From Cinnamomum chago (Eukaryota; Streptophyta; Magnoliopsida; Laurales; Lauraceae), in assembly GCA_038049695.1 (NCBI GenBank), contig CP142458.1:42377501-42441500 (forward strand): a DNA stretch of 64,000 bases, given 5' to 3'. A program made the translations under genes and the position numbers. The notes under the pieces were generated by a model. The model made no database searches, was not told the origin of the DNA, and was given only the letters and a program-made list of their open reading frames with translations. Every line of letters begins with the position of its first letter. The first letter of the stretch is position 1. Of this stretch, positions 1-57,692 are shown one piece after another.

Positions 1-942
1 CAAAACTTTCATAGCATATGCTTTCCATAGTTAGATTATATGATGCTATGATTAATAAACCCCATTTCATCATGGATAGCTCTAATTTGGATTTTTCCTA
101 ATAGTTAAGCTTTTAAATCCATTTTAGAGTGATTGATTTAATAGTCATATCCTTAAATCTCAATTGGTATTCTTTGTTTTTCCAATTGATATCCATGATT
201 GTTTTTCCCATTGACCTTGCTCTTTTGGTAATTTGATCATATTGAGCTTTATAGTTAATTGAATCTAATCCTTCTCTTGAAGTTGACCCTCAATTGGTTA
301 AACCATCTTCTTCTTGCACCTAATAGTTAAAACTTGTCAAAAGTTTGACAAAAGAAGAGAATGGATTGAGGGGGAGTGTAAACCTTCATAGGAAGTATTA
401 GTTTTGATCAAATTCACCCTTGGATTGCCTTTGAGCCCTTAGAGATTAAATCCACACATGATAGCCTGTTATGTATTTCATTTTCGATTTCATTTGTTAA
501 CAGGTGCTACTAAAGGTATTTTCCTTGTTTCATGTGTGTAGGTACCTTTGCAATTTAATGGCAAAGGGGGAGAAAATATGCAAGTTCTCAAAAGGGTAAA
601 GAGAATGTCCAAGTTTCCTAAGGGGAGAGTTGTGTATGATCTTCTACAAGGGGAGAGAATGCATATCTTGCCAAAGGAAGAGAGAGGCATGGTCAAAGGG
701 GGAGAGCAACTAGAAGAAAGAAAGCTTGGAGCTAAAGAAGATGCTTGGCCATAAAGAAAGAAAGATTGAAGAATGATCAAGCACCAAGCATCATGAAGAT
801 TGAAGAAAAGAGCCCAAGAGCCCAAGCTAAGAGGAGGAGCATCCAAGAAGATTTCAAGACTTGTCCAGCAGAGGGGGAGCTAAAGACTAAGTGTGTTTTT
901 TCAGTGGTGAGTGTGTTGCCATCAAATTGCAAAGGGGGAGAT
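1..942 (+). mobile_element. Element L: 3' part of non-coding internal region of a Sirevirus-like LARD
   Basis: This stretch aligns by eye with the last ~950 bases of the internal regions of the tandem array (for example 33200-34146), with scattered substitutions and small indels. It has no gag or pol reading frame. It shows repeated purine tracts of the GGGGGAG type near 369, 565, 640, 698 and 872, and the final tract before the LTR at 931-942. Inverted repeats seen in the array are kept: 10-17 with 43-50, and the 9-bp near-zero-loop hairpin around 336-356. The rest of the element lies left of the window. The small reading frames here are purine-tract translations and are not believed to be genes. 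Confidence 0.85.
931..942 (+). other. Polypurine tract of element L
   Basis: AAAGGGGGAGAT lies directly upstream of the LTR start at 943. This is the expected primer site for plus-strand DNA synthesis. It is the last of a series of similar tracts (multiple PPTs), a trait known from Sireviruses. Confidence 0.8.
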
Positions 943-1409
943 TGTTAGGAATTTTGTAGATTGCAATTTGATGGATGCATAATCATTTTAGCATCATTTG
1001 ATTTACTCACTTGCTTTGATTTAAAGAAATCTTGAAATCTTGTTTTATACATGCATGGTTTTTAAGAGTTGTAAAAGTTTTGATTTATGCATGTTTTGTT
1101 TTCAATCTTGGATGCATTGGTTTTTAGAAAAGAATTTTAAGAAATCAAGCTAGCCTTTGTTTCTAAAGTTTTCAAATCTTTTTAGGCTTTGTGTGGTTCA
1201 TGTTTTAAAAACCCTTAGAATGATTTAAAACATGTTTTCAAGCTTGATTTAATGGCCCAAAAAATTCCCAACCAAAATTACTTTAAAAAATACATTTTTG
1301 GGAAAACAGGACCTTTAGCGGCGGAAAAACCACTTTTACCGGCGGTTTCTGTGTCCGCCGCTAAAAGCAGTTTTTCAAACGGTCACTTTTTTAACCGTTG
1401 TGTGTTCTG

Positions 1410-15350: not shown

Positions 15351-15374
15351 TTTATTTGGTGGACCAAATTTCCT

Positions 15375-21175: not shown

Positions 21176-21446
21176 CAGCTAATTGTTATTGTATTCGAAG
21201 AAATGTTTATACCTCACAGCGGTCTTCGATCTAGATGGGACATGATTGGGGCCAGGTTGCAATGTCGGAAAGTTTTGAATTGGCCCTAATCGCACGCATA
21301 ACACCAATTTCACGTCTGGGGGGGTGACACCACCTATAAACCACTTCCACTCTCAGCCCCCCACCTGTTCCACTCTCAGTCTCTACCTGTCCTAGCCACA
21401 TCTCACCACATAAAACTACACCACCATCAAAACTGCCCACGTAAGT
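21176..21446. other. Spacer between LTRs X1 and X2, nothing recognised
   Basis: About 270 bases with pyrimidine-rich text on the plus strand (21330-21420). There is no reading frame, repeat or TE signature I can name. Confidence 0.5.
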
Positions 21447-28819: not shown

Positions 28820-28824
28820 CCTAT
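28820..28824. repeat. TSD of the LARD array (left)
   Basis: CCTAT precedes LTR1 and is repeated at 52324-52328 after LTR5. The undisturbed site CCTATCAAATTGC is present in the other LTR of S at about 59274-59286. Confidence 0.95.
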
Positions 28825-29219
28825 TGTTAGGAATTTTGTAGATTGCAATTTGATGGATGCATTTTCATTCTAGCATCATTTGATTTACACACTTGCATTG
28901 GTTTTAAATAAACTTGAAATCTTGTTTTATTCATGCATTGCTTTTAAGATTTGTAAAAGTATTGATTTATGCATGAATTGTTTTTTAATCTTGGATGCAT
29001 TTGATTTAGAAAAGAGTTTTCAAGAAATCAAGCAAGCCTTTGTTTTAAAAGTTTTGAATCTTTTTAGGCTTTTTATGTCATGTTTTAAAAACCATTAAAA
29101 TCTTTAAAACATGTTTTCCAAGCTTGATTTAGTGGCCAAAAGGTCCCCCAAAGAAATAACTTTGAAATGTGCAAAAGTTGGAAATTTTGCAAAAAGGGGG
29201 CTGTCCCGGCAGTGTCGCC

Positions 29220-29380
29220 GGTCGACCGAGAGGCAGGTCTCGGTCGACCGAGACAACTGCAGGCAAAAATTGCCTGGGAGCACCAACGGTCAGAAATATG
29301 ACCGTTGTGTGTTCTCGGTCGACCGAGGCCTGTTTGCCGGTCGACCGAGAACTAGCCGTTGGCCACTTTTCCCTATAAAT
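29220..29380 (+). promoter_or_regulatory. LARD LTR promoter region: GGTCGACC palindromes and TATA box
   Basis: Four GGTCGACC sites occur; one extends to an 18-bp perfect palindrome (29237-29254). A separate 9-bp-stem hairpin is at 29286-29308. TATAAAT at 29374-29380 follows about 28 bases after the last palindrome. Copies lie at +5322, +10644, +15966 and +21288. Palindrome-rich cis regions are known from maize Sirevirus LTRs; promoter activity here is inferred. Confidence 0.6.
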
Positions 29381-29541
29381 ATGAGTTCTTTCCCTTGCCA
29401 AAAGTTGGGAATTTTTAACCCCTCCTTGAGAGGATTTGAGGCATATCAAAAGGGAAAAGAACCAAGGGATGAAGGGGAAGATTAGGAAAGCTAAAGCTTG
29501 GATTAATGAAGTTAAACCACCAAGTAGGCTCTTCCTTTCTT

Positions 29542-30137
29542 AATCATATGTTTGCATGCTCTTGTTTTATTTTTGGTAAATCATTTCTAGCATGTTAAAC
29601 TATGTTTGTGTTGTGTCCTTAACATATTTTATGTTTTGAGTTGATTTATTGTTTTGGATACAACATCACATGATTCAATCCAAGTAGTACTTGAATTGGT
29701 AAATCAAAGTAGATCATGTTAATGAAAGAACTTTGGTAAATCATATGTAACATGATCCATATACTTGGTTGAATCTTTGATTGTTGTTTTCCATCATAAG
29801 AACATCTCTCTCAAAACTAACTTATGTTTTGGATTCAACTTCTTTACAAATCATATGTTTTCATGTTTTGTTTTATCATTGGTAAATCTTTGTAACATGT
29901 TAATCTATGATGTGTTGTATCCTTAGCATGTGTTATATTTTGAATAGATCTATTGTTTTGGATACATCACCATTGATTCATCAAAGTAGTACTTTATCTT
30001 TGGTAAATCTAAGTAGATCATGTTAATGAAATATGTAACATGATTCATATACTTTGTTGAATCATTGGTTGTTGTTTTTCCATCATAAGAAAATCTCTTT
30101 CAAATGTATCTTATGTTTTGGATTCAACATCATTACA
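29542..30137 (+). repeat. Diverged ~300-bp tandem duplication inside the LARD LTR
   Basis: Units 29542-29848 and 29849-30137 both open AATCATATGTTT and share the order GGTAAATC, ATGTTAA, GGATACA, AAGTAGTACTT, AGATCATGTTAATGAAA, TTGTTGAATC-like and CCATCATAAGAA. A third start at 30138 then diverges. They are also hairpin-rich, for example ATGTTAA/TTAACAT and ACATGAT/ATCATGT. Confidence 0.75.
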
Positions 30138-30658
30138 AATCATATGTGTATTATTGTTTTTAAAGTATCAACTTGCTTTACTTTGATAGGTATATCATTT
30201 TCAAGTTGTCTTTATAATTACATATGATTTGTCCCCTTACTTCAATCAAATCTAATTTTATGTATTGAGCTTCATTGATGATTTGATTGACATCCCTATG
30301 CATCACATGTTTAGAGCTAATCCATTTTATACAACTTGTGTAACTTTGATATCATTAACAAGTTGTTACTTTTAACATGTGATTGCATTATATCCTCAAT
30401 CATAAATGTTTTTGAGCTAAAACTTTCAAAAGCCTTAGGCATACATTTATGAGCTTTCATTTTAAAAATGATTGAGGACATCACACACACACACTTCATT
30501 TGTTTTCATCTTTGCATTCATAGTGTGAGTGTGTATTTGTATTTCACTTCCATATCCGCCTATTTTAGAGGCAAATGTAATGAGCTAAAATGAATCTCCA
30601 TCTAGTGTATTAAAGACACAACTTAGTGAGATAACCAACCTATGGTTGAAGAGGTTAT

Positions 30659-30782
30659 TGCTTAGCCTATAAAAGCATATTGTATAGGTTGATGTTAAGC
30701 CTTGAAAAACATCAATGTAAAGGTTATTGCTTAGCCTTGGAAAGCATATTGTAAAGGTTATTGCTTAGCCTATTGAAAAGCA
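30659..30782 (+). repeat. AGCCT-loop hairpin minirepeats in LARD LTR1
   Basis: Stem-loops around a constant AGCCT or AAGCCT: TGCTT 30659-30663 with AAGCA 30673-30677; GATGTT 30691-30696 with AACATC 30708-30713; TGCTT 30728-30732 with AAGCA 30742-30746; TGCTT 30762-30766 with AAGCA 30778-30782. The second unit has different but paired arms. In LTR2 (35982) and LTR5 (51998) single substitutions break one pair each. This lies in the predicted 5' leader, about 260 bases before the PBS. Confidence 0.75.
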
Positions 30783-31039
30783 TAAATAGTGGAAATCCGG
30801 TGGGGTGTTGGTTCACAAGCCGGTAGTGGATGTAGGCATTGAGGCCGAACCACTATAAATACTTGTGTGATGGTGCTTGCTTTGTGGTGATTGTTTTCTT
30901 TAAGCTTCCGCATTTTGTTTGATAATCATCACTTATGACTAGTTTGTTTTAAAGAAGTTAAAATTGTTAAAATTGGTCATAAAAGAAGCTCACCCTATTC
31001 ACCCCCCCTCTAGGGTTCGGATCCCCATGGACTTACAAG

Positions 31040-31051
31040 TGGTATCAGAGC
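31040..31051 (+). other. Primer-binding site of LARD internal 1
   Basis: TGGTATCAGAGC, two bases after LTR1. Copies at 36362, 41684 and 47006. Confidence 0.92.
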
Positions 31052-31184
31052 GGGTTACTCCATTTTAGGGCTTAACAACCCGGAGTTGATCCTTGCTAGA
31101 TTTGAACCCTAGTGTTGTGATTTAATTGCATATCTTTTTAAAGATTTCCACTATGTTTGAAAATGAATTTCCCTAGCCTCATTG

Positions 31185-33551
31185 CACCACTCTAAGACTT
31201 TTACAAGTTATATCTTCTAGAGTTGGTGAGTCCTCAAAGTGATCTCTCAAGGACACATTTTCAAGACCTTAGGTGTATTTTCAAAGGTAGACTATTTGAG
31301 TAACCTTAAGGCCTTGATACCCCTAGACCAACCTATGCTTTTTAGTTATATCTTTTTGTTGGTCTTGTCACATTTGCATTTTGTTTCTTTAAAGTCACAT
31401 CTTTTAAAATGCAATATTTCTTTGTGATCATTTGATTTTGACTTCATGAACTTTTTTAGTTATATCTCATGGTTTTCAAAATCCCTTGATTGCAATACTT
31501 TCATGATGGATTTGCATGTTGTTCATTTAGTAATATCTCTTGTTGTGCATATCTAGTCATGATCAATTGATTGTGATTACAAATGCTTTCATAGCTAGTT
31601 TTTCATGATCAATTGATGTTGGAAAATCATTTGATGTTTGTCATAGTTAGATCCTTTTTGGAAATCAAATGATTTGAAGCAACCTAAGTTTTCCATTGAT
31701 TTACAAGTTATATCTCTTGATATGGAAAATTTGTAAGTGTCTATTGTTTTTACAAATTGAAAAACTTTACAATAGTACACTTCTTGTTTTTCAAAATCAC
31801 TTGCTCTTAATTCTATAAATGATTCTTTGTTGGAATTTCATACATTGAAGTGATTTGAAAAACTTTGGAAAATGTTCTAAGCTCTATTAGTTATATTTAT
31901 AGAAGCATTTTCCTTGAATTTATTTCCTTGTGCCTAATTATGATTGTATCTTTTGAAAGGAAATAATTTTTACAAACAATTTGCATCTTTACTCATTGAG
32001 TTACATTCTTTATGCAAATTGATTTTGTTGTCTTACATTGCATGGTTGGATATGATTTCATTGATTTGCATGTTTGTGCCTAACTTGGTATATTCTCATT
32101 AATGCATGTTGATGAGTGTTTATGTGCTTTATAGTAAAATCTTGTATTTTAGCTTTTTAAGTACATATGTGATTTTATGTGCTAAGTTCATTTGGTATAA
32201 ACCTCATATCTTTTTCCATTGCATTGTAAGCTTAGTGCATTTGCTAAGAGTGGAGATGTTACATGATAGCTTAATGAATCATTTTAGATGAATTGGAATT
32301 AAACCATTGTTCTTAATAGGTATATCCATTTATGTGGTCCATCTTCATCTTTATGTGATCCATGATGTCTCTCTAACTTCATACCTTCTTGTGCTTACAT
32401 AGTTATATTCTTTATTGATGTTTGGTATGAGTTAGATCTTGAATGTTGATTGATCCTCTCTATGCAAATGTCAAATCGTTCTATGTATGGTTGTGGTATT
32501 GATTATATTTGTTGAAACCATACTAGAACTCTAATCCATCCTCTATGCCTTATAGTCATTTCTATTTGGATGGTTATGATGTTGATTCATGTACTTTCTC
32601 TAAATGATGTTATTCATATACATGTTTCAACTTCATAGTAGTGTTCTTAATCATATGAAACTCTTTGAAACCCATGTCTCATATTTCTATATGTTTGATG
32701 GATATCCTAGATGTTGAATTCATATGATTTTGACACTTTGAAAATTGCATGCATTACCAAGTAATATCTTTTTGCATTGCAATTTATCTTGTTCATCACT
32801 ATGCTCAATAGTCATATCCTTAAAAGTGATGAATATGCATTTATGATGATTGATGGAATTTTTGTCACATTCTTGCTCTTTATCATGTTATCAAATTCAA
32901 TTGGATTCAATTGGTATAATGTTTGATTGATTTGATTTCTTGTGAATGTGATAAAACTTGTGTACATTGGATTGAACTTGATAAGTAATATGGTTGTTCC
33001 ATGTCACACACCATTAGCATCATTATGCTCATGTTGCCACCTCTCTTTGCTCATATAGGTATATCTCATGACCACCATGTTTATGTGTTCATAATATTGG
33101 TTGGTTATTAGTTGAGGTTGGCTTCATGTTTGAATTTCATTTCACTCTTTCATGCACCTTAATAAGTCATATTTATTGATTGAATGAAATGATTTTCAAA
33201 ATCTTACATAGCATATGATTTTCATAAGTAATATTGATTGATGCTATGTTTGAGTAAACCCCATATCATGGATAGCTCTAATTTGGATTTTTCCTAATAG
33301 GTATATTTTTAAATCCATTTTAGAGTGATTGATTTAAATAGTCATATCCTAAATCTCAATTGGTATTCTTTGTCTTTCCAATTGATATCCATGATGGCTT
33401 TTCCCATTAGACCTTGCTTTCTTTTGGCAATTTGATCATATGAGCTTGATAGTTAAATGAATCTAATCCTTTCTTTGAAGTTGACCCTCACTTGGTTAAA
33501 CCATCTTCTTCTTGTACCTAATAGTTAAATCTTTGTCAAAAGTTTGACAAA
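31185..33551 (+). repeat. Stem-loop array: at least 28 consecutive inverted repeats, loops with an ATATCT-type motif
   Basis: Paired arms seen (left/right): 31185-31194/31218-31228, 31262-31274/31303-31316, 31325-31332/31358-31365, 31374-31382/31406-31414, 31434-31441/31476-31483, 31509-31516/31546-31553, 31624-31635/31664-31675, 31689-31696/31722-31729, 31735-31747/31769-31782, 31794-31802/31848-31856, 31867-31878/31901-31913, 31920-31928/31958-31966, 31977-31986/32012-32021, 32373-32385/32424-32435, 32479-32492/32516-32528, 32533-32541/32568-32575, 32581-32593/32619-32631, 32624-32630/32665-32671, 32742-32752/32774-32785, 32792-32800/32825-32833, 32890-32901/32926-32936, 32964-32970/32999-33004, 33134-33144/33181-33190, 33206-33214/33241-33249, 33284-33290/33311-33317, 33331-33336/33350-33355, 33356-33363/33378-33385, 33532-33540/33543-33551. 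Stems are unrelated to each other. Many loops carry AGTTATATCT or close variants (31206, 31344, 31458, 31529, 31706, 32401, 32760, 32810, 33340). Repeated in internals 2-4. Confidence 0.8.
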
Positions 33552-33566
33552 AGAAGAGAATGGATT

Positions 33567-34146
33567 GAGGGGGAGTGTAAACCTTCATAGGAAGTATTAG
33601 TTGTGATCAAATTGACCCTAGGATTGCCTTTGAACCCTTAGAGACTTCTACCTCACATGATAGCCTGTTATGTATTTCATCTTCGATTTCATTTGTTAAC
33701 AGGTGCTACTAATGGTATTTTCCTTGTTTCATGTGTGTAGGTACCTTTGCAATTTAATGGCAAAGGGGGAGAAATTATGCAAGTTCTCAATAGGGTGAAG
33801 AGAATGTCCAAGCTTCCTAAGGGGAGAGTTGTGTATGATCTTCTACAAAGGGAGAGAATGCATAGCTTGCCAAAGGGAGAAAGAGGCATGGTCAAAGGGG
33901 GAGAGCTAATAGAAGAAAGAAAGCTTGGAAGCTAAAGAAGATGCTTGGATAAAGAGAGAAAGAAGAAAGAAAGCTTGAAGGTTGATCAAGCTCCAAGCAT
34001 CATGAAGATTGAAGTCCAAGAGCCCAAGCTTTGAGAAGAAGCATCCAAGAAGATTTCAAGACTTGTCCAGCTGAGGGGGAGCTGAAGACTTAGTGTGTAA
34101 TGTTCAGTGGTGAGTGAGTTTGCCATCAAATTGCAAAGGGGGAGAT
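33567..34146 (+). other. Multiple polypurine tracts (MPPT) at the 3' end of LARD internal 1
   Basis: Tracts at 33567-33575, 33762-33771, 33819-33828, 33847-33856, about 33872-33885, 33893-33904, 34073-34081 and the terminal 34135-34146, all GGGGGAG- or GGGAGA-like. Multiple PPTs are a described Sirevirus feature. The terminal one abuts LTR2. Confidence 0.8.
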
Positions 34147-36359: not shown

Positions 36360-39300
36360 AGTGGTATCAGAGCGGGTTACTCCATTTTAGGGCTTAACAA
36401 CCCGGAGTTGATCCTTGCTAGATTTGAACCCTAGTGTTGTGATTTAATTGCATATCTTTTTAAAGATTTCCACTATGTTTGAAAATGAATTTCCCTAGCC
36501 TCATTGCACCACTCTAAGACTTTTACAAGTTATATCTTCTAGAGTTGGTGAGTCCTCAAAGTGATCTCTCAAGGACACATTTTCAAGACCTTAGGTGTAT
36601 TTTCAAAGGTAGACTATTTGAGTAACCTTAAGGCCTTGATACCCCTAGACCAACCTATGCTTTTTAGTTATATCTTTTTGTTGGTCTTGTCACATTTGCA
36701 TTTTGTTTCTTTAAAGTCACATCTTTTAAAATGCAATATTTCTTTGTGATCATTTGATTTTGACTTCATGAACTTTTTTAGTTATATCTCATGGTTTTCA
36801 AAATCCCTTGATTGCAATACTTTCATGATGGATTTGCATGTTGTTCATTTAGTAATATCTCTTGTTGTGCATATCTAGTCATGATCAATTGATTGTGATT
36901 ACAAATGCTTTCATAGCTAGTTTTTCATGATCAATTGATGTTGGAAAATCATTTGATGTTTGTCATAGTTAGATCCTTTTTGGAAATCAAATGATTTGAA
37001 GCAACCTAAGTTTTCCATTGATTTACAAGTTATATCTCTTGATATGGAAAATTTGTAAGTGTCTATTGTTTTTACAAATTGAAAAACTTTACAATAGTAC
37101 ACTTCTTGTTTTTCAAAATCACTTGCTCTTAATTCTATAAATGATTCTTTGTTGGAATTTCATACATTGAAGTGATTTGAAAAACTTTGGAAAATGTTCT
37201 AAGCTCTATTAGTTATATTTATAGAAGCATTTTCCTTGAATTTATTTCCTTGTGCCTAATTATGATTGTATCTTTTGAAAGGAAATAATTTTTACAAACA
37301 ATTTGCATCTTTACTCATTGAGTTACATTCTTTATGCAAATTGATTTTGTTGTCTTACATTGCATGGTTGGATATGATTTCATTGATTTGCATGTTTGTG
37401 CCTAACTTGGTATATTCTCATTAATGCATGTTGATGAGTGTTTATGTGCTTTATAGTAAAATCTTGTATTTTAGCTTTTTAAGTACATATGTGATTTTAT
37501 GTGCTAAGTTCATTTGGTATAAACCTCATATCTTTTTCCATTGCATTGTAAGCTTAGTGCATTTGCTAAGAGTGGAGATGTTACATGATAGCTTAATGAA
37601 TCATTTTAGATGAATTGGAATTAAACCATTGTTCTTAATAGGTATATCCATTTATGTGGTCCATCTTCATCTTTATGTGATCCATGATGTCTCTCTAACT
37701 TCATACCTTCTTGTGCTTACATAGTTATATTCTTTATTGATGTTTGGTATGAGTTAGATCTTGAATGTTGATTGATCCTCTCTATGCAAATGTCAAATCG
37801 TTCTATGTATGGTTGTGGTATTGATTATATTTGTTGAAACCATACTAGAACTCTAATCCATCCTCTATGCCTTATAGTCATTTCTATTTGGATGGTTATG
37901 ATGTTGATTCATGTACTTTCTCTAAATGATGTTATTCATATACATGTTTCAACTTCATAGTAGTGTTCTTAATCATATGAAACTCTTTGAAACCCATGTC
38001 TCATATTTCTATATGTTTGATGGATATCCTAGATGTTGAATTCATATGATTTTGACACTTTGAAAATTGCATGCATTACCAAGTAATATCTTTTTGCATT
38101 GCAATTTATCTTGTTCATCACTATGCTCAATAGTCATATCCTTAAAAGTGATGAATATGCATTTATGATGATTGATGGAATTTTTGTCACATTCTTGCTC
38201 TTTATCATGTTATCAAATTCAATTGGATTCAATTGGTATAATGTTTGATTGATTTGATTTCTTGTGAATGTGATAAAACTTGTGTACATTGGATTGAACT
38301 TGATAAGTAATATGGTTGTTCCATGTCACACACCATTAGCATCATTATGCTCATGTTGCCACCTCTCTTTGCTCATATAGGTATATCTCATGACCACCAT
38401 GTTTATGTGTTCATAATATTGGTTGGTTATTAGTTGAGGTTGGCTTCATGTTTGAATTTCATTTCACTCTTTCATGCACCTTAATAAGTCATATTTATTG
38501 ATTGAATGAAATGATTTTCAAAATCTTACATAGCATATGATTTTCATAAGTAATATTGATTGATGCTATGTTTGAGTAAACCCCATATCATGGATAGCTC
38601 TAATTTGGATTTTTCCTAATAGGTATATTTTTAAATCCATTTTAGAGTGATTGATTTAAATAGTCATATCCTAAATCTCAATTGGTATTCTTTGTCTTTC
38701 CAATTGATATCCATGATGGCTTTTCCCATTAGACCTTGCTTTCTTTTGGCAATTTGATCATATGAGCTTGATAGTTAAATGAATCTAATCCTTTCTTTGA
38801 AGTTGACCCTCACTTGGTTAAACCATCTTCTTCTTGTACCTAATAGTTAAATCTTTGTCAAAAGTTTGACAAAAGAAGAGAATGGATTGAGGGGGAGTGT
38901 AAACCTTCATAGGAAGTATTAGTTGTGATCAAATTGACCCTAGGATTGCCTTTGAACCCTTAGAGACTTCTACCTCACATGATAGCCTGTTATGTATTTC
39001 ATCTTCGATTTCATTTGTTAACAGGTGCTACTAATGGTATTTTCCTTGTTTCATGTGTGTAGGTACCTTTGCAATTTAATGGCAAAGGGGGAGAAATTAT
39101 GCAAGTTCTCAATAGGGTGAAGAGAATGTCCAAGCTTCCTAAGGGGAGAGTTGTGTATGATCTTCTACAAAGGGAGAGAATGCATAGCTTGCCAAAGGGA
39201 GAAAGAGGCATGGTCAAAGGGGGAGAGCTAATAGAAGAAAGAAAGCTTGGAAGCTAAAGAAGATGCTTGGATAAAGAGAGAAAGAAGAAAGAAAGCTTGA

Positions 39301-41681: not shown

Positions 41682-44600
41682 AGTGGTATCAGAGCGGGTT
41701 ACTCCATTTTAGGGCTTAACAACCCGGAGTTGATCCTTGCTAGATTTGAACCCTAGTGTTGTGATTTAATTGCATATCTTTTTAAAGATTTCCACTATGT
41801 TTGAAAATGAATTTCCCTAGCCTCATTGCACCACTCTAAGACTTTTACAAGTTATATCTTCTAGAGTTGGTGAGTCCTCAAAGTGATCTCTCAAGGACAC
41901 ATTTTCAAGACCTTAGGTGTATTTTCAAAGGTAGACTATTTGAGTAACCTTAAGGCCTTGATACCCCTAGACCAACCTATGCTTTTTAGTTATATCTTTT
42001 TGTTGGTCTTGTCACATTTGCATTTTGTTTCTTTAAAGTCACATCTTTTAAAATGCAATATTTCTTTGTGATCATTTGATTTTGACTTCATGAACTTTTT
42101 TAGTTATATCTCATGGTTTTCAAAATCCCTTGATTGCAATACTTTCATGATGGATTTGCATGTTGTTCATTTAGTAATATCTCTTGTTGTGCATATCTAG
42201 TCATGATCAATTGATTGTGATTACAAATGCTTTCATAGCTAGTTTTTCATGATCAATTGATGTTGGAAAATCATTTGATGTTTGTCATAGTTAGATCCTT
42301 TTTGGAAATCAAATGATTTGAAGCAACCTAAGTTTTCCATTGATTTACAAGTTATATCTCTTGATATGGAAAATTTGTAAGTGTCTATTGTTTTTACAAA
42401 TTGAAAAACTTTACAATAGTACACTTCTTGTTTTTCAAAATCACTTGCTCTTAATTCTATAAATGATTCTTTGTTGGAATTTCATACATTGAAGTGATTT
42501 GAAAAACTTTGGAAAATGTTCTAAGCTCTATTAGTTATATTTATAGAAGCATTTTCCTTGAATTTATTTCCTTGTGCCTAATTATGATTGTATCTTTTGA
42601 AAGGAAATAATTTTTACAAACAATTTGCATCTTTACTCATTGAGTTACATTCTTTATGCAAATTGATTTTGTTGTCTTACATTGCATGGTTGGATATGAT
42701 TTCATTGATTTGCATGTTTGTGCCTAACTTGGTATATTCTCATTAATGCATGTTGATGAGTGTTTATGTGCTTTATAGTAAAATCTTGTATTTTAGCTTT
42801 TTAAGTACATATGTGATTTTATGTGCTAAGTTCATTTGGTATAAACCTCATATCTTTTTCCATTGCATTGTAAGCTTAGTGCATTTGCTAAGAGTGGAGA
42901 TGTTACATGATAGCTTAATGAATCATTTTAGATGAATTGGAATTAAACCATTGTTCTTAATAGGTATATCCATTTATGTGGTCCATCTTCATCTTTATGT
43001 GATCCATGATGTCTCTCTAACTTCATACCTTCTTGTGTTTACATAGTTATATTCTTTATTGATGTTTGGTATGAGTTAGATCTTGAATGTTGATTGATCC
43101 TCTCTATGCAAATGTCAAATCGTTCTATGTATGGTTGTGGTATTGATTATATTTGTTGAAACCATACTAGAACTCTAATCCATCCTCTATGCCTTATAGT
43201 CATTTCTATTTGGATGGTTATGATGTTGATTCATGTACTTTCTCTAAATGATGTTATTCATATACATGTTTCAACTTCATAGTAGTGTTCTTAATCATAT
43301 GAAACTCTTTGAAACCCATGTCTCATATTTCTATATGTTTGATGGATATCCTAGATGTTGAATTCATATGATTTTGACACTTTGAAAATTGCATGCATTA
43401 CCAAGTAATATCTTTTTGCATTGCAATTTATCTTGTTCATCACTATGCTCAATAGTCATATCCTTAAAAGTGATGAATATGCATTTATGATGATTGATGG
43501 AATTTTTGTCACATTCTTGCTCTTTATCATGTTATCAAATTCAATTGGATTCAATTGGTATAATGTTTGATTGATTTGATTTCTTGTGAATGTGATAAAA
43601 CTTGTGTACATTGGATTGAACTTGATAAGTAATATGGTTGTTCCATGTCACACACCATTAGCATCATTATGCTCATGTTGCCACCTCTCTTTGCTCATAT
43701 AGGTATATCTCATGACCACCATGTTTATGTGTTCATAATATTGGTTGGTTATTAGTTGAGGTTGGCTTCATGTTTGAATTTCATTTCACTCTTTCATGCA
43801 CCTTAATAAGTCATATTTATTGATTGAATGAAATGATTTTCAAAATCTTACATAGCATATGATTTTCATAAGTAATATTGATTGATGCTATGTTTGAGTA
43901 AACCCCATATCATGGATAGCTCTAATTTGGATTTTTCCTAATAGGTATATTTTTAAATCCATTTTAGAGTGATTGATTTAAATAGTCATATCCTAAATCT
44001 CAATTGGTATTCTTTGTCTTTCCAATTGATATCCATGATGGCTTTTCCCATTAGACCTTGCTTTCTTTTGGCAATTTGATCATATGAGCTTGATAGTTAA
44101 ATGAATCTAATCCTTTCTTTGAAGTTGACCCTCACTTGGTTAAACCATCTTCTTCTTGTACCTAATAGTTAAATCTTTGTCAAAAGTTTGACAAAAGAAG
44201 AGAATGGATTGAGGGGGAGTGTAAACCTTCATAGGAAGTATTAGTTGTGATCAAATTGACCCTAGGATTGCCTTTGAACCCTTAGAGACTTCTACCTCAC
44301 ATGATAGCCTGTTATGTATTTCATCTTCGATTTCATTTGTTAACAGGTGCTACTAATGGTATTTTCCTTGTTTCATGTGTGTAGGTACCTTTGCAATTTA
44401 ATGGCAAAGGGGGAGAAATTATGCAAGTTCTCAATAGGGTGAAGAGAATGTCCAAGCTTCCTAAGGGGAGAGTTGTGTATGATCTTCTACAAAGGGAGAG
44501 AATGCATAGCTTGCCAAAGGGAGAAAGAGGCATGGTCAAAGGGGGAGAGCTAATAGAAGAAAGAAAGCTTGGAAGCTAAAGAAGATGCTTGGATAAAGAG

Positions 44601-47003: not shown

Positions 47004-50000
47004 AGTGGTATCAGAGCGGGTTACTCCATTTTAGGGCTTAACAACCCGGAGTTGATCCTTGCTAGATTTGAACCCTAGTGTTGTGATTTAATTGCATATC
47101 TTTTTAAAGATTTCCACTATGTTTGAAAATGAATTTCCCTAGCCTCATTGCACCACTCTAAGACTTTTACAAGTTATATCTTCTAGAGTTGGTGAGTCCT
47201 CAAAGTGATCTCTCAAGGACACATTTTCAAGACCTTAGGTGTATTTTCAAAGGTAGACTATTTGAGTAACCTTAAGGCCTTGATACCCCTAGACCAACCT
47301 ATGCTTTTTAGTTATATCTTTTTGTTGGTCTTGTCACATTTGCATTTTGTTTCTTTAAAGTCACATCTTTTAAAATGCAATATTTCTTTGTGATCATTTG
47401 ATTTTGACTTCATGAACTTTTTTAGTTATATCTCATGGTTTTCAAAATCCCTTGATTGCAATACTTTCATGATGGATTTGCATGTTGTTCATTTAGTAAT
47501 ATCTCTTGTTGTGCATATCTAGTCATGATCAATTGATTGTGATTACAAATGCTTTCATAGCTAGTTTTTCATGATCAATTGATGTTGGAAAATCATTTGA
47601 TGTTTGTCATAGTTAGATCCTTTTTGGAAATCAAATGATTTGAAGCAACCTAAGTTTTCCATTGATTTACAAGTTATATCTCTTGATATGGAAAATTTGT
47701 AAGTGTCTATTGTTTTTACAAATTGAAAAACTTTACAATAGTACACTTCTTGTTTTTCAAAATCACTTGCTCTTAATTCTATAAATGATTCTTTGTTGGA
47801 ATTTCATACATTGAAGTGATTTGAAAAACTTTGGAAAATGTTCTAAGCTCTATTAGTTATATTTATAGAAGCATTTTCCTTGAATTTATTTCCTTGTGCC
47901 TAATTATGATTGTATCTTTTGAAAGGAAATAATTTTTACAAACAATTTGCATCTTTACTCATTGAGTTACATTCTTTATGCAAATTGATTTTGTTGTCTT
48001 ACATTGCATGGTTGGATATGATTTCATTGATTTGCATGTTTGTGCCTAACTTGGTATATTCTCATTAATGCATGTTGATGAGTGTTTATGTGCTTTATAG
48101 TAAAATCTTGTATTTTAGCTTTTTAAGTACATATGTGATTTTATGTGCTAAGTTCATTTGGTATAAACCTCATATCTTTTTCCATTGCATTGTAAGCTTA
48201 GTGCATTTGCTAAGAGTGGAGATGTTACATGATAGCTTAATGAATCATTTTAGATGAATTGGAATTAAACCATTGTTCTTAATAGGTATATCCATTTATG
48301 TGGTCCATCTTCATCTTTATGTGATCCATGATGTCTCTCTAACTTCATACCTTCTTGTGTTTACATAGTTATATTCTTTATTGATGTTTGGTATGAGTTA
48401 GATCTTGAATGTTGATTGATCCTCTCTATGCAAATGTCAAATCGTTCTATGTATGGTTGTGGTATTGATTATATTTGTTGAAACCATACTAGAACTCTAA
48501 TCCATCCTCTATGCCTTATAGTCATTTCTATTTGGATGGTTATGATGTTGATTCATGTACTTTCTCTAAATGATGTTATTCATATACATGTTTCAACTTC
48601 ATAGTAGTGTTCTTAATCATATGAAACTCTTTGAAACCCATGTCTCATATTTCTATATGTTTGATGGATATCCTAGATGTTGAATTCATATGATTTTGAC
48701 ACTTTGAAAATTGCATGCATTACCAAGTAATATCTTTTTGCATTGCAATTTATCTTGTTCATCACTATGCTCAATAGTCATATCCTTAAAAGTGATGAAT
48801 ATGCATTTATGATGATTGATGGAATTTTTGTCACATTCTTGCTCTTTATCATGTTATCAAATTCAATTGGATTCAATTGGTATAATGTTTGATTGATTTG
48901 ATTTCTTGTGAATGTGATAAAACTTGTGTACATTGGATTGAACTTGATAAGTAATATGGTTGTTCCATGTCACACACCATTAGCATCATTATGCTCATGT
49001 TGCCACCTCTCTTTGCTCATATAGGTATATCTCATGACCACCATGTTTATGTGTTCATAATATTGGTTGGTTATTAGTTGAGGTTGGCTTCATGTTTGAA
49101 TTTCATTTCACTCTTTCATGCACCTTAATAAGTCATATTTATTGATTGAATGAAATGATTTTCAAAATCTTACATAGCATATGATTTTCATAAGTAATAT
49201 TGATTGATGCTATGTTTGAGTAAACCCCATATCATGGATAGCTCTAATTTGGATTTTTCCTAATAGGTATATTTTTAAATCCATTTTAGAGTGATTGATT
49301 TAAATAGTCATATCCTAAATCTCAATTGGTATTCTTTGTCTTTCCAATTGATATCCATGATGGCTTTTCCCATTAGACCTTGCTTTCTTTTGGCAATTTG
49401 ATCATATGAGCTTGATAGTTAAATGAATCTAATCCTTTCTTTGAAGTTGACCCTCACTTGGTTAAACCATCTTCTTCTTGTACCTAATAGTTAAATCTTT
49501 GTCAAAAGTTTGACAAAAGAAGAGAATGGATTGAGGGGGAGTGTAAACCTTCATAGGAAGTATTAGTTGTGATCAAATTGACCCTAGGATTGCCTTTGAA
49601 CCCTTAGAGACTTCTACCTCACATGATAGCCTGTTATGTATTTCATCTTCGATTTCATTTGTTAACAGGTGCTACTAATGGTATTTTCCTTGTTTCATGT
49701 GTGTAGGTACCTTTGCAATTTAATGGCAAAGGGGGAGAAATTATGCAAGTTCTCAATAGGGTGAAGAGAATGTCCAAGCTTCCTAAGGGGAGAGTTGTGT
49801 ATGATCTTCTACAAAGGGAGAGAATGCATAGCTTGCCAAAGGGAGAAAGAGGCATGGTCAAAGGGGGAGAGCTAATAGAAGAAAGAAAGCTTGGAAGCTA
49901 AAGAAGATGCTTGGATAAAGAGAGAAAGAAGAAAGAAAGCTTGAAGGTTGATCAAGCTCCAAGCATCATGAAGATTGAAGTCCAAGAGCCCAAGCTTTGA

Positions 50001-52793: not shown

Positions 52794-55772
52794 TTAGAAT
52801 TCAGGGCAAGGGCCAATGCCCAATTGATGTCTCAATTTTATGAAACGATCATTTCCAAGGGGTTTAGTAAATAGGTCAGCCAATTGGGTATATGTAGGAA
52901 CAAACATTAACTCAATAGTGCCTTGGTCAGCATGATCACGCAAGAAATGATAGCGAATGTCAATGTGCTTAGTACGAGAGTGCTGAACAGGATTTTTAGA
53001 AATACTAATGGCACTAGAGTTGTCACACATGATAGGCATGCATTGTTGTGGACCATTATAATCTAACAAAGTTTGTTTCATCCACAACAATTGGGCACAA
53101 CAGCTACCTGCAGCAATATATTCAGCTTCTGCAGTAGACAATGATACATAATTTTGCTTTTTGCTATGCCAGGCTACTAAGCAGTTCCCTAAGAAATAGC
53201 AGCAGCCACTAGTGCTTTTCCTATCATCTATTGATCCTGCCCAATCTGCATCACTATATCCAATTAATTGCAGAGTTGAGTCATGAGGATACCAGATACC
53301 ATAGTGAGAAGTCCAATTAATATATTTTATGATACGTTTAACAACTTTAATGTGAGACTCTCGGGGGTCAGATTGATACCTAGCACATATTCCAACGCTA
53401 AACGAGATATCAGGGCGGCTAGCAGTGAGATAGAGAAGGCTTCCTATCATGCTCCTATAAAGTTTCTGGTCAGCTTTCTTACCCTGAAGATCACTAGATA
53501 TTTTAGTAGTGGAGCCCATGGGATTGCAACTAGTCTTAGATTCTCCTAAGCCAAACTTTTTCACTATTTCTAGAGCAAACTTGGATTGACTAAGGAACAT
53601 ACCATGATCAGTCTGACTAACTTGTAATCCTAGAAAGAATTGCAGGGGACCGACCAGACTCATCTCAAAAGTGGAGCTCATCAATTCTGAAAATCCTTGT
53701 TCTAGTTTCTCTGAAGTAGATCCAAATACTATATCATCAACATAGATTTGGGCTACAAGAATGTTTTGATCAATCTTCTTGATAAACAGAGTCTTATCAA
53801 CTTTCCCACATTCAAAATCATTTTCAATCAGATGATTTGTAAGCTTTTCATACCAAGCCCGAGGTGCTTGTTTTAATCCATAGAGAGCTTTCTTGAGCTT
53901 ATAAACATACTCAGGATGATGAGGGTCTTCACAGCCTTCAGGTTGAGTAACATAAACATCTTCTTCAATTTCTCCATTCAAGAAGGCACTTTTGACATCC
54001 ATCTGAAATAGTTTGATTCTCATGCTACTAGAATAACTCAATAGAATTCTTATGGACTCCAAATGGGCTACAGGAGCAAAAGTTTCTTCAAAATCAATTC
54101 CTTCTATTTGAGCATATCCTTTTGCTACTAGTCTAGCTTTGTTTCTCACAACATTTCCAAATTCATCTGACTTGTTCTTGAAAATCCATTTAGTGCCTAT
54201 GGGATTTTTCTCTGCAGGCAATGGGACAAGATCCCAAACATCATTTTTCTTAAACTGATTCAATTCTTCTTGCATAGCTTCCATCCATTCAGATTTTGAT
54301 TCAGCTTCAGAAAAATTCTTAGGCTCGATTTGAGAGACAAAGGAGTAATGAGCACATAGGTTTTGAACTTGTCTCCGGGTCATAACCCCACTGCTGATAT
54401 CTCCAATAACATTATCCAAAGTGTGATTTTTCATTAATTTTGTTGGAACAATGGCTTTGGAAGGAATGCTTTTATTACTATCTTTTGGATTAGATTGATC
54501 AATATCCATTTCAATTTCATCATTGTCTTGAAGAATTCTTCCAACTTGATTTGCGTCATTAATGACAACATGAGCTGACTCCATTATAGCCATGGTTCTA
54601 TGATTAAAAACTCTGTATGCTTTGCTCCTTTCAGAATAGCCTAGGAAAATTCCTTCATCAGATTTAGGTTCAAATTTTTTTAACTGCTCCCTATCTCTTA
54701 GAATGTAACATTTGCTTCCAAACACTTTCAAATACCCCAAATTAGGTTTTATTTCAAAATAAAGTTCGTAAGGAGTTTTGTTGGTATTCTTAGTGAGATA
54801 GACTCTGTTGATGAGATAACAGGCAGTATTCACAGCTTCAGCCCATAGATTACGAGAGAGATTCTTTTCACTAAGCATGGTCCTAGCCATTTCTTGAATA
54901 ACTCTATTTCTCCTTTCAGCTACTCCATTTTGTTGAGGATTTTTAGGAGCAGAGTATTGATGATTAATTCCATGACTCTCGCAAAATTTAGCGAATTTTT
55001 CATTTTCAAATTCTCCCCCATGATCACTTCTGATCTTCCGAATTTTACAGTCCCTTTCTACTTGAATCTTATTGCAAATCCTTATGATATTGTCCACAGC
55101 ATCCGATTTGGCATGAAGAAAGGCAACCCATCCAAAACGAGAATGATCATCGACCATAACTAGGATAAATTTCTTTCCTCCAATACTTTGCACTGGTGCA
55201 GGTCCAATTAAGTCCATGTGGATTAATTCAAAAGGACGAGAAGACGATATATCCTTTAAACCTTTAAAGCTCTTCTTGATTTGTTTTCCCAGTTGACAAG
55301 CCTTACAGAGTTCAGATTTTTCATCACTTAACTTGGGAATCCCTTTCATTATTTCATTCTTTGACAAGGTTTTCATCAATTTGAAATTTATGTGACCCAT
55401 CCTTTGGTGCCATAAGTAATTCTCTTGATCTTTAGTTATCAAGCACCTAGATTCATTCTCATCACATTCTTCTATAATGTAAATGTTTCCTTTTGTTCTT
55501 GATCCAGTAAGAATAACTTGATGGGTTTTATCATTTACCACTTTGCAAGATTGACTATCAAATACTACCTTGTTTCCTTTGTCACATAATTGGCTAATGC
55601 TAAGAAGATTATGTTTCAATCCTTCCACAAGGAATACATCATTTAATGTTGGTATTTGATCTCCTTTCACACTTCCCTTGCCAATGATTTGAGCTTTACT
55701 ATTGTCTCCAAACGAAACATTTCCTCCATCATATTCCACTATAGAGCTGAATCTAGATCGGTCTCCTGTCAT
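52794..55772 (-). pseudogene. pol: Integrase - RT - RNase H of S (992 codons open)
   Basis: From the first Met (within the protease motif): GAG-pre-integrase zinc segment HQRMGH...CKACQLGK (about 121-165), integrase core with HMDLIGP, VDDHSRF, SDHGGEF and NGVAERRNR (about 186-290), RVT_2 reverse transcriptase from [12 protein letters not shown] to YVDDIVFGS (about 530-680), and RNase H with [18 protein letters not shown] and KHIDIRYHF (about 845-950). All catalytic-type residues are visible. Integrase upstream of RT is the copia order. No envelope-like frame follows, since the 3' UTR starts directly. Confidence 0.92.
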
Positions 55773-55994
55773 GTGTTTAGAACAACCACTATCTAAGAAC
55801 TAAGTAGGGTTTTCCTTTGCTTTTAAAGCGGTTTGAACTAGGAGACTCTCAAAGTTTGTTCCTTTTACCATCCAAGTGGATAAAGGGGATTTATAGGGAA
55901 TGGTCTTGGGGACAAATTTGAAAGGTATTCTAGAAGGATTTTTGAGAGACAACCTAATTTTGTATGGGCAATTAGGGACATGTCCACTACGATT

Positions 55995-57218
55995 TCAAAA
56001 ATGACAAGTCCATCTAGGTGTATAATTTCTCTCAACTATAGGTTTGTGGGGACTCCTAGTAGATGCTTGAAAACTATTCTTCATGACACTAGGGGAACCT
56101 TCAAAACCTATTCCTTTCTTGTCACCATAAATTTTATGCATGTCCAACATTTGATAAAATTTGTCATTTCCCAAGGTGAATTTTTCAACAATGAATTTTC
56201 CTTTATTAAGTTTTATTTGGAGAGAGTTTGTTTCAAGTTGACTAGATTCAAGCTTGGATTGTAAATTATGAATTTGTTTTTGAGCATGAGTTAAATCTTC
56301 ATTAAGAGTGGTGATTTGATGTTCCAAGTTGTTTTTCTCATTGATTGTTAATTTCAATTCATCTTTTATGATACTCACTTCATTTACAAGCTTTTTGGAA
56401 TCTTCTTTTAAAATTTTATTTTTCTTAAGTAAGATTTCCCAATTTTCATATAGTTCATTATAAGCTTGTTGAATTCCATCATCTTCATCTTCTTCATTTG
56501 TTTCTTCTTGCCCTAATGTGTCATCTATTAATGTATTATGCTCATTTGGATCTTCAATAGATGAAAGTAGAAGCCAATTAGAGAAATTTTCATCTTCATC
56601 ATTAGAGGATTCATTTTTGTCACACTCTTCATCATCCTCATCCCAAGTTATGTTTAAAGCCTTTTTTCCTTTCTTATCTCCTTTTTCAAATTCTTTAGGG
56701 GTGGAGCAATTTTGAGCAATGTGTCCAAACCCCTTGCAATTGTAACATTGCACATCCTTTTTACTTAGAGATCCTTTGGGATTTCTTTGGAATCTAGGAC
56801 TTTTGCTTTCACTAAAAATTTTATTGTTCTTGTTGTTACTAAAGAACTTTTTAAATTTCTTAACAAATAAAGCATTGTCCTCATCACTATCAACATCACT
56901 TTCATTTTCTTTGGAATGAGAGGAAAAGGCTACTCCTTTCTTTTTGCCTTGAACTTCAAAGTCTAATTCATATGTAAGGAGATTTCCTCTTAGTTCTTCA
57001 ATTTTGATTTTGTCAACATCTTTGCTTTTTGTTATGGCAACAATTTTAGGTTTGAATCTTTTTGGGAGAGATCTTAAAATTTTTCTAACAGCTTTAGATT
57101 CATCCATCTTTTCTCCTAGGCCTATAAGAGAGTTGACAATTTCCATGAATGTAGAGTAGAATTCATCAAATGTTTCTTCTTCAAGCATCTTAATGTCTTC
57201 TAATTTAGAGGTCAACAT
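55995..57218 (-). pseudogene. gag: gag portion of S (open stretch)
   Basis: Contains a UBN2-like gag core (ETFDEFYSTFMEIVNSLIGLG ... ILRSLPKRFKPKIVAI), a CCHC knuckle CYNCKGFGHIAQNC and an acidic stretch (DEDDEECDKNESSNDEDE). A long coiled coil of about 90 residues (EILLKKNKILKE ... LQSKLESSQLE) follows. Coding-quality sequence also extends upstream of the first Met (…EIWDTLETTHEGTDQVKIAKIQ). Acidic and coiled-coil extensions after the knuckle are common in large Sirevirus Gag proteins. Confidence 0.85.
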
Positions 57219-57678
57219 TTGAATTTTGGCTATCTTGACCTGATCTGTGCCTTCATGGGTGGTCTCTAGGGTATCCCAAATTTCCTTAGCAGTGTTGCAA
57301 TTAACTACTCTATTAAATTCTTCTTGAGATAGAGCACAATATAGAGAATTTTTTGCCTTAGCATTTAAGTTTGCTCTATCCTTTTCTCCTTGAGTCCAAG
57401 TATTTTTGGGTTTGATTTTTATGGATATAACATTCCCCTCAGAGTCTTTTCCTGTGGTAGTGGATAGCCATCTTCAATGATGTTCCACACATCTAAGTTT
57501 TGGGATTCTAAGAACACTTACATTCTGACTTTCCAATAGCGATAGTGTGTTTCATTAAACAGAGGAGGTCTATTGGTGGCATTTCCTTCACCCAATTGAG
57601 ATTGCATGCTGGCAACAAAAGAAAAACACTCACTAGGATTCTAACTCTAGGTGGTTAAACCAAAACAAGAGCAACCTT

Positions 57679-57690: not shown

Positions 57691-57692
57691 AT

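Follow-up and report, generated by a model that had tools for sequence, protein, structure and literature searches.

How is a non-coding LTR element recognised and mobilised by the proteins of others? Such elements are presumed to rely on trans-complementation (PMC7215508, in the part of that article consulted). The stretch of DNA analysed here (the window, 64,000 nt; all coordinates are positions in it, on the forward strand) contains an element whose interior carries a chain of stem-loops (31185..33551, plus strand), located by repeat counts and motif scans. The stems are mostly unrelated, and the loops carry the word AGTNATATC(T). The origin, the constraint and the proposed role of this chain are considered below.

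Host element and tandem array

The chain lies in a non-autonomous Sirevirus of 5.3 kb. Self-comparison and inspection of the ends gave a tandem array of five LTRs and four interiors (period 5322 bp), the whole of which is bounded by a single pair of target-site duplications (CCTAT, 28820..28824 on the left and 52324-52328 on the right). The 5' LTR of the first unit (TG...CA, 2213 bp, 28825..31037, plus strand) was delimited by self-comparison, by its ends and by the target-site duplication, and the first internal region (3.1 kb, 31038..34146, plus strand) by self-comparison and a frame scan; no frame of at least 130 amino acids was found in this region on either strand. Placed by the 5322-bp period, the chain recurs on the plus strand at 36507..38873, 41829..44195 and 47151..49517 in the second, third and fourth units.

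Like Sireviruses (PMC2829016), the element has polypurine octamers, an AT/TG attachment site, an inverted repeat at the terminal polypurine tract and a poly-C tract; unlike autonomous Sireviruses, it lacks gag-pol. The octamer AGGGGGAG occurs five times within 33568..34144 (plus strand; at 33568, 33764, 33896, 34074 and 34137), clustered before the 3' LTR as in Sireviruses, and the terminal copy is followed by AT and then by TG. This copy is enclosed by the inverted repeat 34123-34136/34165-34178, the left arm of which abuts the octamer, likewise a Sirevirus trait. The poly-C tract at the end of the LTR (31000) and the primer binding site TGGTATCAGAGC (31040) were read from the sequence of 31000..31051 (plus strand). 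Each LTR carries four exact copies of the palindrome CGGTCGACCG (29219..29347, plus strand, in the first unit), with CTATAAATA 25 bp beyond the last (at 29373); the sequence is the same as that of a Vitis element. CGG-CCG palindromic boxes have been described upstream of the TATA box in 13 of 21 Sirevirus LTRs, with at least eight copies in each (PMC2829016), a level above that found here.

The array is inserted into another Sirevirus, the gag and pol frames of which (52794..57473, minus strand) represent a candidate helper type. The chain was not seen in this host (52324-59278), where the loop motif occurs four times in sense and three times in antisense orientation.

Stem-loop chain

Inverted repeats were counted with loops of 10-60 nt and compared with 300 dinucleotide shuffles. 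In 31185-33551, 18 non-overlapping perfect inverted repeats with arms of at least 8 were obtained (shuffled mean 3.27, sd 1.69, maximum 8), together with 10 for arms of at least 9 (0.96 shuffled) and 6 for arms of at least 10 (0.26 shuffled). A chance origin of the chain is rejected by these counts, in agreement with an earlier, sequence-only reading of this DNA. The six perfect stems named in that reading proved right when each was checked letter by letter; its figure of at least 28 hairpins hinges on allowing bulges, and the perfect ones number 18 (arm 8) to 22 (arm 7). That the stems share no sequence was roughly true: words of at least six letters are common to 7 of the 153 stem pairs (2.9 expected from shuffled arms). 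Because the stems differ to this extent, identity of the chain with the Sirevirus LTR palindromes was rejected. A known RNA family was rejected as well, since Rfam 15 gave no match at the gathering threshold in 29000-36500. The excess of inverted repeats extends beyond the interior: 20000-22366 contains 8 (2.0 shuffled), and the LTR of the first unit is itself rich in hairpins (15 versus 2.9 shuffled).

Individual hairpins were located on the plus strand by repeat and motif scans. Stems of 8 bp with a motif in the loop stand at 31434..31483 (with inner CATGA/TCATG), 31867..31913, 32742..32785 and 33137..33192; those of 9 bp at 31374..31414, 32792..32833 and 33206..33249; one of 10 bp at 31977..32021 and one of 12 bp at 31624..31675. 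A further 10-bp hairpin, at 31562..31617, has no motif match. The core hairpin at 31728-31758 competes with the stem 31689/31722 from the earlier reading; both are present.

Loop motif

Twenty-one copies of the word AGTNATATC(T) lie on the sense strand of 31185-33551, and none on the other. With one mismatch allowed, AGTTATAT was found 21 times on the plus strand (3.1 expected) and once on the minus strand, and the 15 most enriched eight-letter words of the stretch are all variants of the motif. Ten of the 21 motifs fall within the loops of core hairpins (mean under shifting 3.4; ten reached in 13 of 2357 shifts), and no motif overlaps a core stem (5.4 expected). When the motif positions were shifted along the sequence, pairing between the flanks peaked at the 21 motifs themselves: of 2356 shifts, only those of −1 to −5 did as well or better. 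The corresponding numbers in four other copies were 3 to 7 among about 1740-2250, with the best shifts between −5 and +1. The earlier claim of a mid-loop motif therefore stands as regards a non-random occurrence at a fixed loop position (0.48-0.67 of the loop in all ten motif-bearing core hairpins), and it applies to 10 of the 18 core loops. The LTR at 28825..31037 contains GGTA[AT]ATC six times in sense and never in antisense orientation.

Copies of the element in the same genome were assigned to subfamilies A, B and C, with 21 motifs per copy in A, 18-19 in C and 9-14 in B. The motif varies at positions 4 and 6 among A copies; in the alignment of 31185-31745, positions 8 and 9 are as variable as these, and the motif columns of B are conserved only a little better than the other loop positions.

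Local hairpins might serve compaction only, shortening and protecting the RNA without any specific ligand. Such a role would fit the eight of 18 core hairpins in which a motif match is missing, as well as the LTR hairpins, which are of other sequence and are likewise enriched and less variable than their surroundings. A motif that is confined to the sense strand, kept at one position of the loop and placed outside the core stems, however, calls for a reader, and compaction alone is accordingly considered rather improbable.

RNA folding

With pairs at most 120 nt apart, the sense strand of the whole stretch folds with z = −10.3. Six 394-nt windows of the chain gave z values of −2.3 to −5.1 in sense, as compared with −0.3 to +0.7 for five coding windows of the neighbouring Sirevirus and −1.7 to +1.3 for six other windows; the folding z-scores that had been proposed together with the sequence-only reading thus place the chain as more stable than the controls. 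In antisense, the six chain windows are also stable (z −1.8 to −6.3), and the strand is therefore not told by folding energy.

Variation among family copies

For the comparison of diversity, stems were defined on the reference, which was excluded from the copies, and 16 of 24 A copies were taken as A. The A alignment was made without L001-L004 (the units of the array itself), and the copy at window positions 1-947 is outside most counts. The set of 13 B copies is without L044; L057 (a repeat of L037) and L029-L036 were left unused.

Core stems are 2.5 to 10 times less variable than their own loops in A, B and C copies. Stem diversity against that of non-motif loop was 0.019 versus 0.063 in A (stems lower in 16 of 18 hairpins), 0.058 versus 0.145 in a first B comparison (5 of 5), 0.025 versus 0.107 in a second (6 of 8) and 0.009 versus 0.087 in C (7 of 8). 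One-sided stem variants were set against the numbers expected at non-stem rates: 14 of the G-U type were seen (16.8 expected), 3 of the A-C type (17.4 expected) and 25 transversions (51.8 expected), with p = 0.005. When 20 B copies were scored with their own hairpins, 23 G-U states and 3 A-C states were obtained (p about 5e-4, with the mutation spectrum allowed for). DNA-only palindromes and antisense RNA were rejected as the selected form on the grounds of this asymmetry. Judged by the variation among copies, the sense RNA of the chain is under constraint, and its stems are protected. The idea of a structured RNA with a repeated loop motif, put forward in the earlier reading, is supported by the low variability of the arms and by the acceptance of transitions that mostly pair in sense. 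Stems of the LTR are also less variable than their surroundings, with a small G-U/A-C count of 10 versus 6.

Hairpin 1 (AGACCAAC/GTTGGTCT, 31325..31365, plus strand) is shared by subfamilies A, B and C and also turned up at three of the five distant loci; its pattern was unmatched in four of 57 sequences (L044, L052, L068 and L069). Of the 19 matched B copies, 18 retain its eight pairs in full, as do the three distant loci, where G-U and U-G pairs occur. At the outer pair, a mismatch of A with A was read in 21 of the 25 A sequences and in 4 of the 6 from C; a clean exchange of A-T for T-A at this pair was dropped, as A-A stands in most A copies. In the hairpin at 33206..33249, the outer pair is A-T, and it is T-A in the copy at window positions 9-51.

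Two-sided compensation between subfamilies was compared with a re-pairing control. Over all predicted pairs, compensated cells numbered 79 as against a control mean of 27.1 (sd 13.0; maximum 81 in 300 runs), and 30 versus 13.1 (sd 8.4, largest 51) in a second comparison. Within core stems, compensated and uncompensated two-sided cells numbered 4 versus 6, 17 versus 12 (13 of the 17 from one pair) and 1 versus 3, and within B three pairs were compensated versus 2.2. One-sided cells in core stems broke rather than kept the pair in 77 versus 34, 48 versus 12 and 46 versus 37 cases, and much of the breaking sits at few sites, such as the outer pair of hairpin 1. As to whether the arms mutate without compensation, the outcome is thus divided: transitions mostly keep the pairing, whereas two-sided compensation is scarce and some changes break pairs. 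For two block losses, a placement exists in which every predicted pair stays intact; the loss of 32275..32367 (plus strand) from six C-type copies allows such a placement. Contrary to a modular reading, the block difference 32013-32460 in B copies breaks at least 17 predicted pairs, and a gap of 26 bases in L042 breaks 16.

An origin at the level of DNA or of reverse transcription (template switching, quasi-palindrome correction or cruciforms), with no function of the RNA, would agree with the loss of entire hairpins as blocks in some copies and with the weak two-sided compensation; reverse transcriptase can skip hairpins. DNA processes are strand-symmetric, yet the stems tolerate G-U but not A-C transitions in sense and the loop motif is sense-only, and a several-fold lower stem diversity is unexpected from unbiased correction. 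This origin is disfavoured and is regarded as very improbable.

The hairpins might instead engage the plant silencing machinery as double-stranded RNA, as the earlier reading also suggested, serving it as substrates or as decoys; small-RNA hot spots of maize Sirevirus LTRs, where palindrome clusters attract small RNAs (PMC10760457 and PMC5311732, in the excerpts consulted), would be the parallel. The maize palindromes, however, are one repeated stem in the LTR, whereas the stems differ here, and the hairpins are conserved. Stems of 8-12 bp are also short for Dicer-like cutting, and a silencing role is held to be quite improbable.

Sister subfamilies and Gag-like ORF

Upstream of the chain, sister subfamilies of this genome have a Gag-like ORF with coiled coil and zinc knuckle. 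The window itself contains the 3' interior end of a B-subfamily copy (1..947, plus strand), the Gag-like ORF of which lies just beyond it (L037:506-2074). The B-element protein (about 520 aa, with zinc knuckle and coiled coil) is lysine-rich. Its ORF is open in 9 of 13 B-type loci, which is 9 of the 20 loci of the set; 52 of 82 scored matches are without a stop, 12 of the 52 being units of one array. With dN/dS values of 0.24-0.69 (36 pairs among nine open copies), the B ORF is, on this codon-level evidence, under purifying selection. The coiled coil of the protein shows weak similarity to the neighbouring Sirevirus Gag; no Pfam capsid family was detected at E values up to 1, and the ORF tested is without RT. 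Two relatives (80 and 64% identity) were found in public assemblies. A scan of viral contigs with the Gag-like alignment returned 211 pattern stretches and no relative among them, and the PDB comparison with the start of ORF2 found nothing.

In B elements the chain begins directly after the ORF stop; in A and C elements the chain is longer and the ORF absent. None of five loci of more distant subfamilies aligns to the chain by blastn; hairpins are few in four of the five, and L069 runs into unrelated sequence. The genome holds 6196 and 9370 first-look candidate places of the family, few of which were scored. The earlier label of LARD fits only the non-coding subfamily A; the element is not isolated but belongs to a large family in which others carry the Gag-like ORF.

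The sense RNA structure could be read by a host protein and not by Gag, with a part in stability, retention or nuclear export of the RNA, or in translation control, the chain then being the 3' untranslated region of the Gag-like ORF. The structural evidence for such a reader is identical to that for docking of Gag, and the position of the B chain directly behind the ORF is the usual place for such elements. A and C, by contrast, have no ORF and yet a longer chain, and host RNA signals generally consist of a single element or a handful, as against about 20 here. We regard a host reader as unlikely, although less so than the alternatives weighed above.

Proposed role of the chain

The interior is proposed to be a functional sense RNA whose successive hairpins serve as docking sites for a protein, most probably Gag/nucleocapsid in packaging, a reading to which we give about an even chance; the loop-reading protein, its identity as Gag and the outcome in packaging are inferred. 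The interior RNA would fold into about 20 or more independent stem-loops, many loops of which (about 23-40 nt) would present AGUNAUAUC(U) just past the middle on the 3' side, with the stems as interchangeable scaffolds and the loop as the signal. The most likely reader would be a nucleocapsid-type Gag, supplied by sister B elements or by an autonomous Sirevirus; the Gag of the host Sirevirus has no obvious reason to know the motif, because the chain was not seen in that element. With many Gag copies bound along its length, an RNA would be drawn and compacted into virus-like particles, in the way of dispersed packaging signals in some RNA viruses, and ORF-less elements would be packaged in trans by offering more motif sites than B. 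Such repeated docking might also help the RNA to be copied by proteins of a relative. The Gag binding or packaging in trans suggested in the earlier reading is compatible with these results.

More tentatively, coding may have been traded for the array of docking hairpins, so that ORF-bearing and protein-less relatives would compete for one nucleocapsid through the number of AGUNAUAUC loops. The competing series, equally tentative, may comprise elements in which a Gag-like ORF is joined by a second ORF and hairpins are few, Gag-only elements of medium chain length, and protein-less parasites, whose chain is long. If true, a retroelement would possess a dispersed, SELEX-like packaging code, which would explain the spread of a non-coding LARD at the expense of its helper. 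The family supplies a candidate signal, a loop motif at a fixed position repeated about 20 times, and because chain length varies naturally among members that have the Gag-like ORF and those that lack it, and candidate places number in the thousands, the idea is open to a direct test.

Comparison with known systems

TR-GAG elements are gag-only non-autonomous plant LTR elements. B elements resemble them in having LTRs and a Gag-like ORF with no pol found, and differ from them in an ORF without recognisable capsid domain and in the hairpin chain that follows it. The tandem arrays are shared with Cassandra and Wukong, likewise non-autonomous LTR elements (PMC7215508, as far as consulted); unlike these, the unit is 5-6 kb long and not a TRIM, and the arrays stand apart from the hairpin finding. 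Repeated motifs of Sireviruses consist of a single palindrome and are found either upstream of env or in the LTR; the chain is interior, and what recurs in it is the loop, not the stem.

As in LARDs (e.g., Sukkula, from partial sources), an LTR element has a long non-coding interior, encodes no protein and is presumed to depend on a helper. The large non-coding interior of LARDs is found here (2.2-kb LTRs, 3.1-kb interior), and so is a conserved RNA secondary structure, albeit with weak two-sided compensation; members are not all non-coding. Compared with LARDs as these sources describe them, the family stands out by its numerous small hairpins, in which the stems differ and a single loop motif recurs, by a sense-strand signature of constraint among copies and by a Gag-like ORF in sister copies. 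No retrotransposon of such architecture was found in the literature covered, the original LARD description being outside its scope.

LARDs with structured RNA are already known, as are the dispersed packaging hairpins of RNA viruses. The coat protein of satellite tobacco necrosis virus (STNV) recognises stem-loops with the loop motif AXXA (PMC3593212), and hepatitis B virus (HBV) has coat-protein-recognised stem-loops with the loop motif RGAG (PMC7612645), both as given in the excerpts consulted. Like the dispersed packaging signals of STNV, MS2 and HBV, the chain places many stem-loops with a short common loop motif on one RNA. In those viruses protein binding has been tested and the genomes are coding, whereas the present element has a non-coding interior with loops of mostly 23-40 nt and is known from its sequence. 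The proposed docking array would extend the concept of dispersed packaging signals from RNA viruses to retrotransposons.

Window element, array and family

Self-comparison of the window gave a 5322-bp unit in head-to-tail repeats at 28825-52323 (four interiors and five LTRs, each LTR 2213 bp), the units being ~99.9% identical to one another. A single 5-bp duplication, CCTAT, flanks the whole array, which therefore grew after insertion or went in as an array. The 3.1-kb interior of the unit holds no frame of at least 130 aa. Sirevirus criteria taken from part of the Results of PMC2829016 were applied to the element, which carries an AT/TG site and five AGGGGGAG octamers, the last hugged by an inverted repeat; CGGTCGACCG boxes lie upstream of the TATA box, and a poly-C tract precedes the primer binding site.

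A search of the 1.06-Gb host genome (40 of 6196 candidates scored) returned at least 45 matches in at least 40 unit places and at least 25 separate loci, at least 8 of these being arrays by our own grouping. Tandem LTR-interior arrays are common in the family (28825-52323 in the window, G000:C1:77729778-77797199 in the same genome, and others), and C1 carries 12 family matches spaced ~6 kb apart. Next to a partial, diverged LTR of the family at 61545-63087 (minus strand) lies a stretch that resembles the integrase region of the Ty3-type element (14374-15448). A Ty3-type gag-pol with chromodomain (10791-15350) lies between repeats 97-98% identical (3589-4533 with 8461-10538, and 15388-18406), the left one interrupted by ~3.9 kb of other sequence.

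The fetched copies sort into three subfamilies: A is window-like, C is similar to A but lacks one block, and B has an interior that opens with a frame of ~520 aa. The B frame combines a long coiled coil with a CCHC zinc knuckle and a lysine-rich tail, and shows weak similarity to the Gag of the neighbouring Sirevirus over the coiled-coil part of the latter. Of the 20 fetched loci, 9 have an open frame of >450 aa; these are 9 of the 13 B-type loci, and dN/dS was 0.24-0.69 across the 36 comparisons among them. When the genome was searched with the B frame (9370 first-look candidates), 52 of 82 scored matches were stop-free, 12 of the 52 being units of one array. Two protein relatives (80 and 64% identity) were found in a collection of 5.8 billion proteins.

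Hairpins and loop motif

The sequence-only reading had described a chain of stem-loops at 31185-33551, in a non-coding retrotransposon interior, whose loops are related and whose stems are not, and this description held: 18 inverted repeats with arms of at least 8 were counted against 3.27 in shuffled sequence (sd 1.69, 300 shuffles), and all six perfect stems that it named were exact on a letter check. An unsupervised word search returned variants of the loop motif as the top enriched words. The motif occurs 21 times in sense and 0 times in antisense in the interior. Of these 21 occurrences, 10 are in core-hairpin loops (18 core hairpins), each centred at 0.48-0.67 of its loop, and no occurrence overlaps a core stem (5.4 expected). 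When all 21 motifs were slid along the sequence, flank pairing peaked at most 5 bases from the true register, with a like outcome in four other copies. In B the chain comes after the frame. Eight B copies carry 10-18 perfect hairpins each and three C copies 15-17 (shuffled mean 1.7-3.5); the longest chains belong to the protein-less copies.

RNA folding exceeded shuffles in stability in six chain windows read in sense (z of -2.3 to -5.1), and did not in five coding controls. Folding energy cannot name the strand, because these six windows also fold stably in antisense (z -1.8 to -6.3), which inverted repeats should do. The inverted-repeat excess is common to the LTR and, more weakly, to 20000-22366, so that hairpin excess per se is not unique to the chain. 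The LTR (28825-31037) has hairpins beyond its CG-rich palindromes and contains GGTA[AT]ATC, a word related to the loop motif (6 sense, 0 antisense). At 20000-22366, 8 inverted repeats with arms of at least 8 (2.0 in shuffles) lie within or beside an 87% identical repeat pair (20046-21169 and 21963-23096).

Constraint on the sense RNA

Diversity was measured among copies other than the reference, on which the core stems were defined. Stem and non-motif loop values were 0.019 and 0.063 in A, 0.058 and 0.145 as well as 0.025 and 0.107 in B, and 0.009 and 0.087 in C. Outside the core hairpins diversity was 0.046 (A), 0.080 and 0.072 (B) and 0.062 (C), a contrast with stems (1.4 to 7 times) smaller than that against loops.

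In the sense RNA, one transition in a Watson-Crick pair leaves a G-U pair in some cases and an A-C mismatch in the others; these roles swap in antisense RNA and are equal in DNA. G-U-type variants were about as frequent in stems as outside them (14, 16.8 expected), A-C-type variants were rare (3, 17.4 expected) and transversions were halved (25, 51.8 expected; p = 0.005). In 20 B copies, judged on their own hairpins, G-U to A-C counts were 23 to 3 when a pair had to occur in 3 or more copies, 45 to 12 for all pairs and 16 to 2 with a minimum of 8 copies (p ~5e-4 and 3e-4, mutation spectrum from all columns). All these counts treat each variant as an independent event, although the copies are related. 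Because stem transitions are mostly G-U and A-C is rare, the constraint is assigned, from sequence comparison, to the sense RNA.

Compensation and block differences

Several observations do not fit this picture, and two-sided stem compensation is weak. Between subfamilies, it lay above the mean of a re-pairing control when all predicted pairs were taken (79 against 27.1, sd 13.0, and 30 against 13.1, sd 8.4), single control runs reaching 81 and 51. In core stems, compensated and uncompensated two-sided cells numbered 4 and 6 in A, 17 and 12 in 31185-31745 (one pair supplying 13 of the 17) and 1 and 3 in 32461-33551. Among one-sided cells, pair-breaking exceeded pair-keeping (77 vs 34, 48 vs 12 and 46 vs 37, respectively), much of the breaking being concentrated at few sites. 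Within B, 3 compensated pairs were found (2.2 expected). The outer pair of hairpin 1, the first of the chain (31325-31365), is A-A in 21 and A-T in 4 of 25 A sequences. The B copies with a match, 19 in number, have T-A there, and three distant loci have A-T or G-U.

Variation of the loop motif in A copies is concentrated at positions 4 and 6, the other positions changing little; this contrast is weaker in 32461-33551, and in 31185-31745 positions 8 and 9 are equally variable. Two of three distinct large block differences can be placed without breaking predicted pairs (chance ~0.03 and 0.04), the third breaks at least 17, and a 26-base gap breaks 16. Hairpins may possibly be gained and lost as modules.

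Distant relatives

Five more distant loci were read, and their first 420 nt held 9 hairpins of arm length 8 or more (3.6 in shuffles, maximum 8). Hairpin 1 recurs in L065, L066 and L067. Loci L065-L068 retain a few hairpins 3' of the frame and then have a second frame; the long chain thus stands where these relatives have that second frame. In the three distant loci tested, the second frame matched PF20167, a plant transposon protein family, below the Pfam cut-off. It starts with MARTKQT in three of the four loci L065-L068 and with MAGNKQT in the fourth; we take the former to resemble the histone H3 N-terminal tail. Comparison of 28 residues from this start with the PDB gave no match.

Proposed role and comparison with known systems

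Selection maintains short sense-RNA stems whose letters differ between hairpins, and one word at a fixed place in many loops. On the simplest reading, a protein would recognise the stem-borne loop at many sites along one RNA. A candidate reader is the Gag-derived protein of RNA-binding type encoded by sister copies. Rival explanations are a host RNA-binding protein, pure compaction of the RNA, silencing and a mutational origin of the hairpins. Nucleocapsid docking and packaging is favoured, at about an even chance, since sister copies encode the Gag-derived protein and protein-less copies carry the longest chains.

Structured LARD RNA is already on record (PMC7215508). Such a chain architecture was not found in the literature searched, at the level of titles and abstract openings among the matches listed. 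Dispersed packaging signals are reported in hepatitis B virus (RGAG, PMC7612645) and in satellite tobacco necrosis virus, where as many as 30 stem-loops carry AXXA (PMC3593212), and their layout, a repeated loop motif on stems, is like that of the chain.
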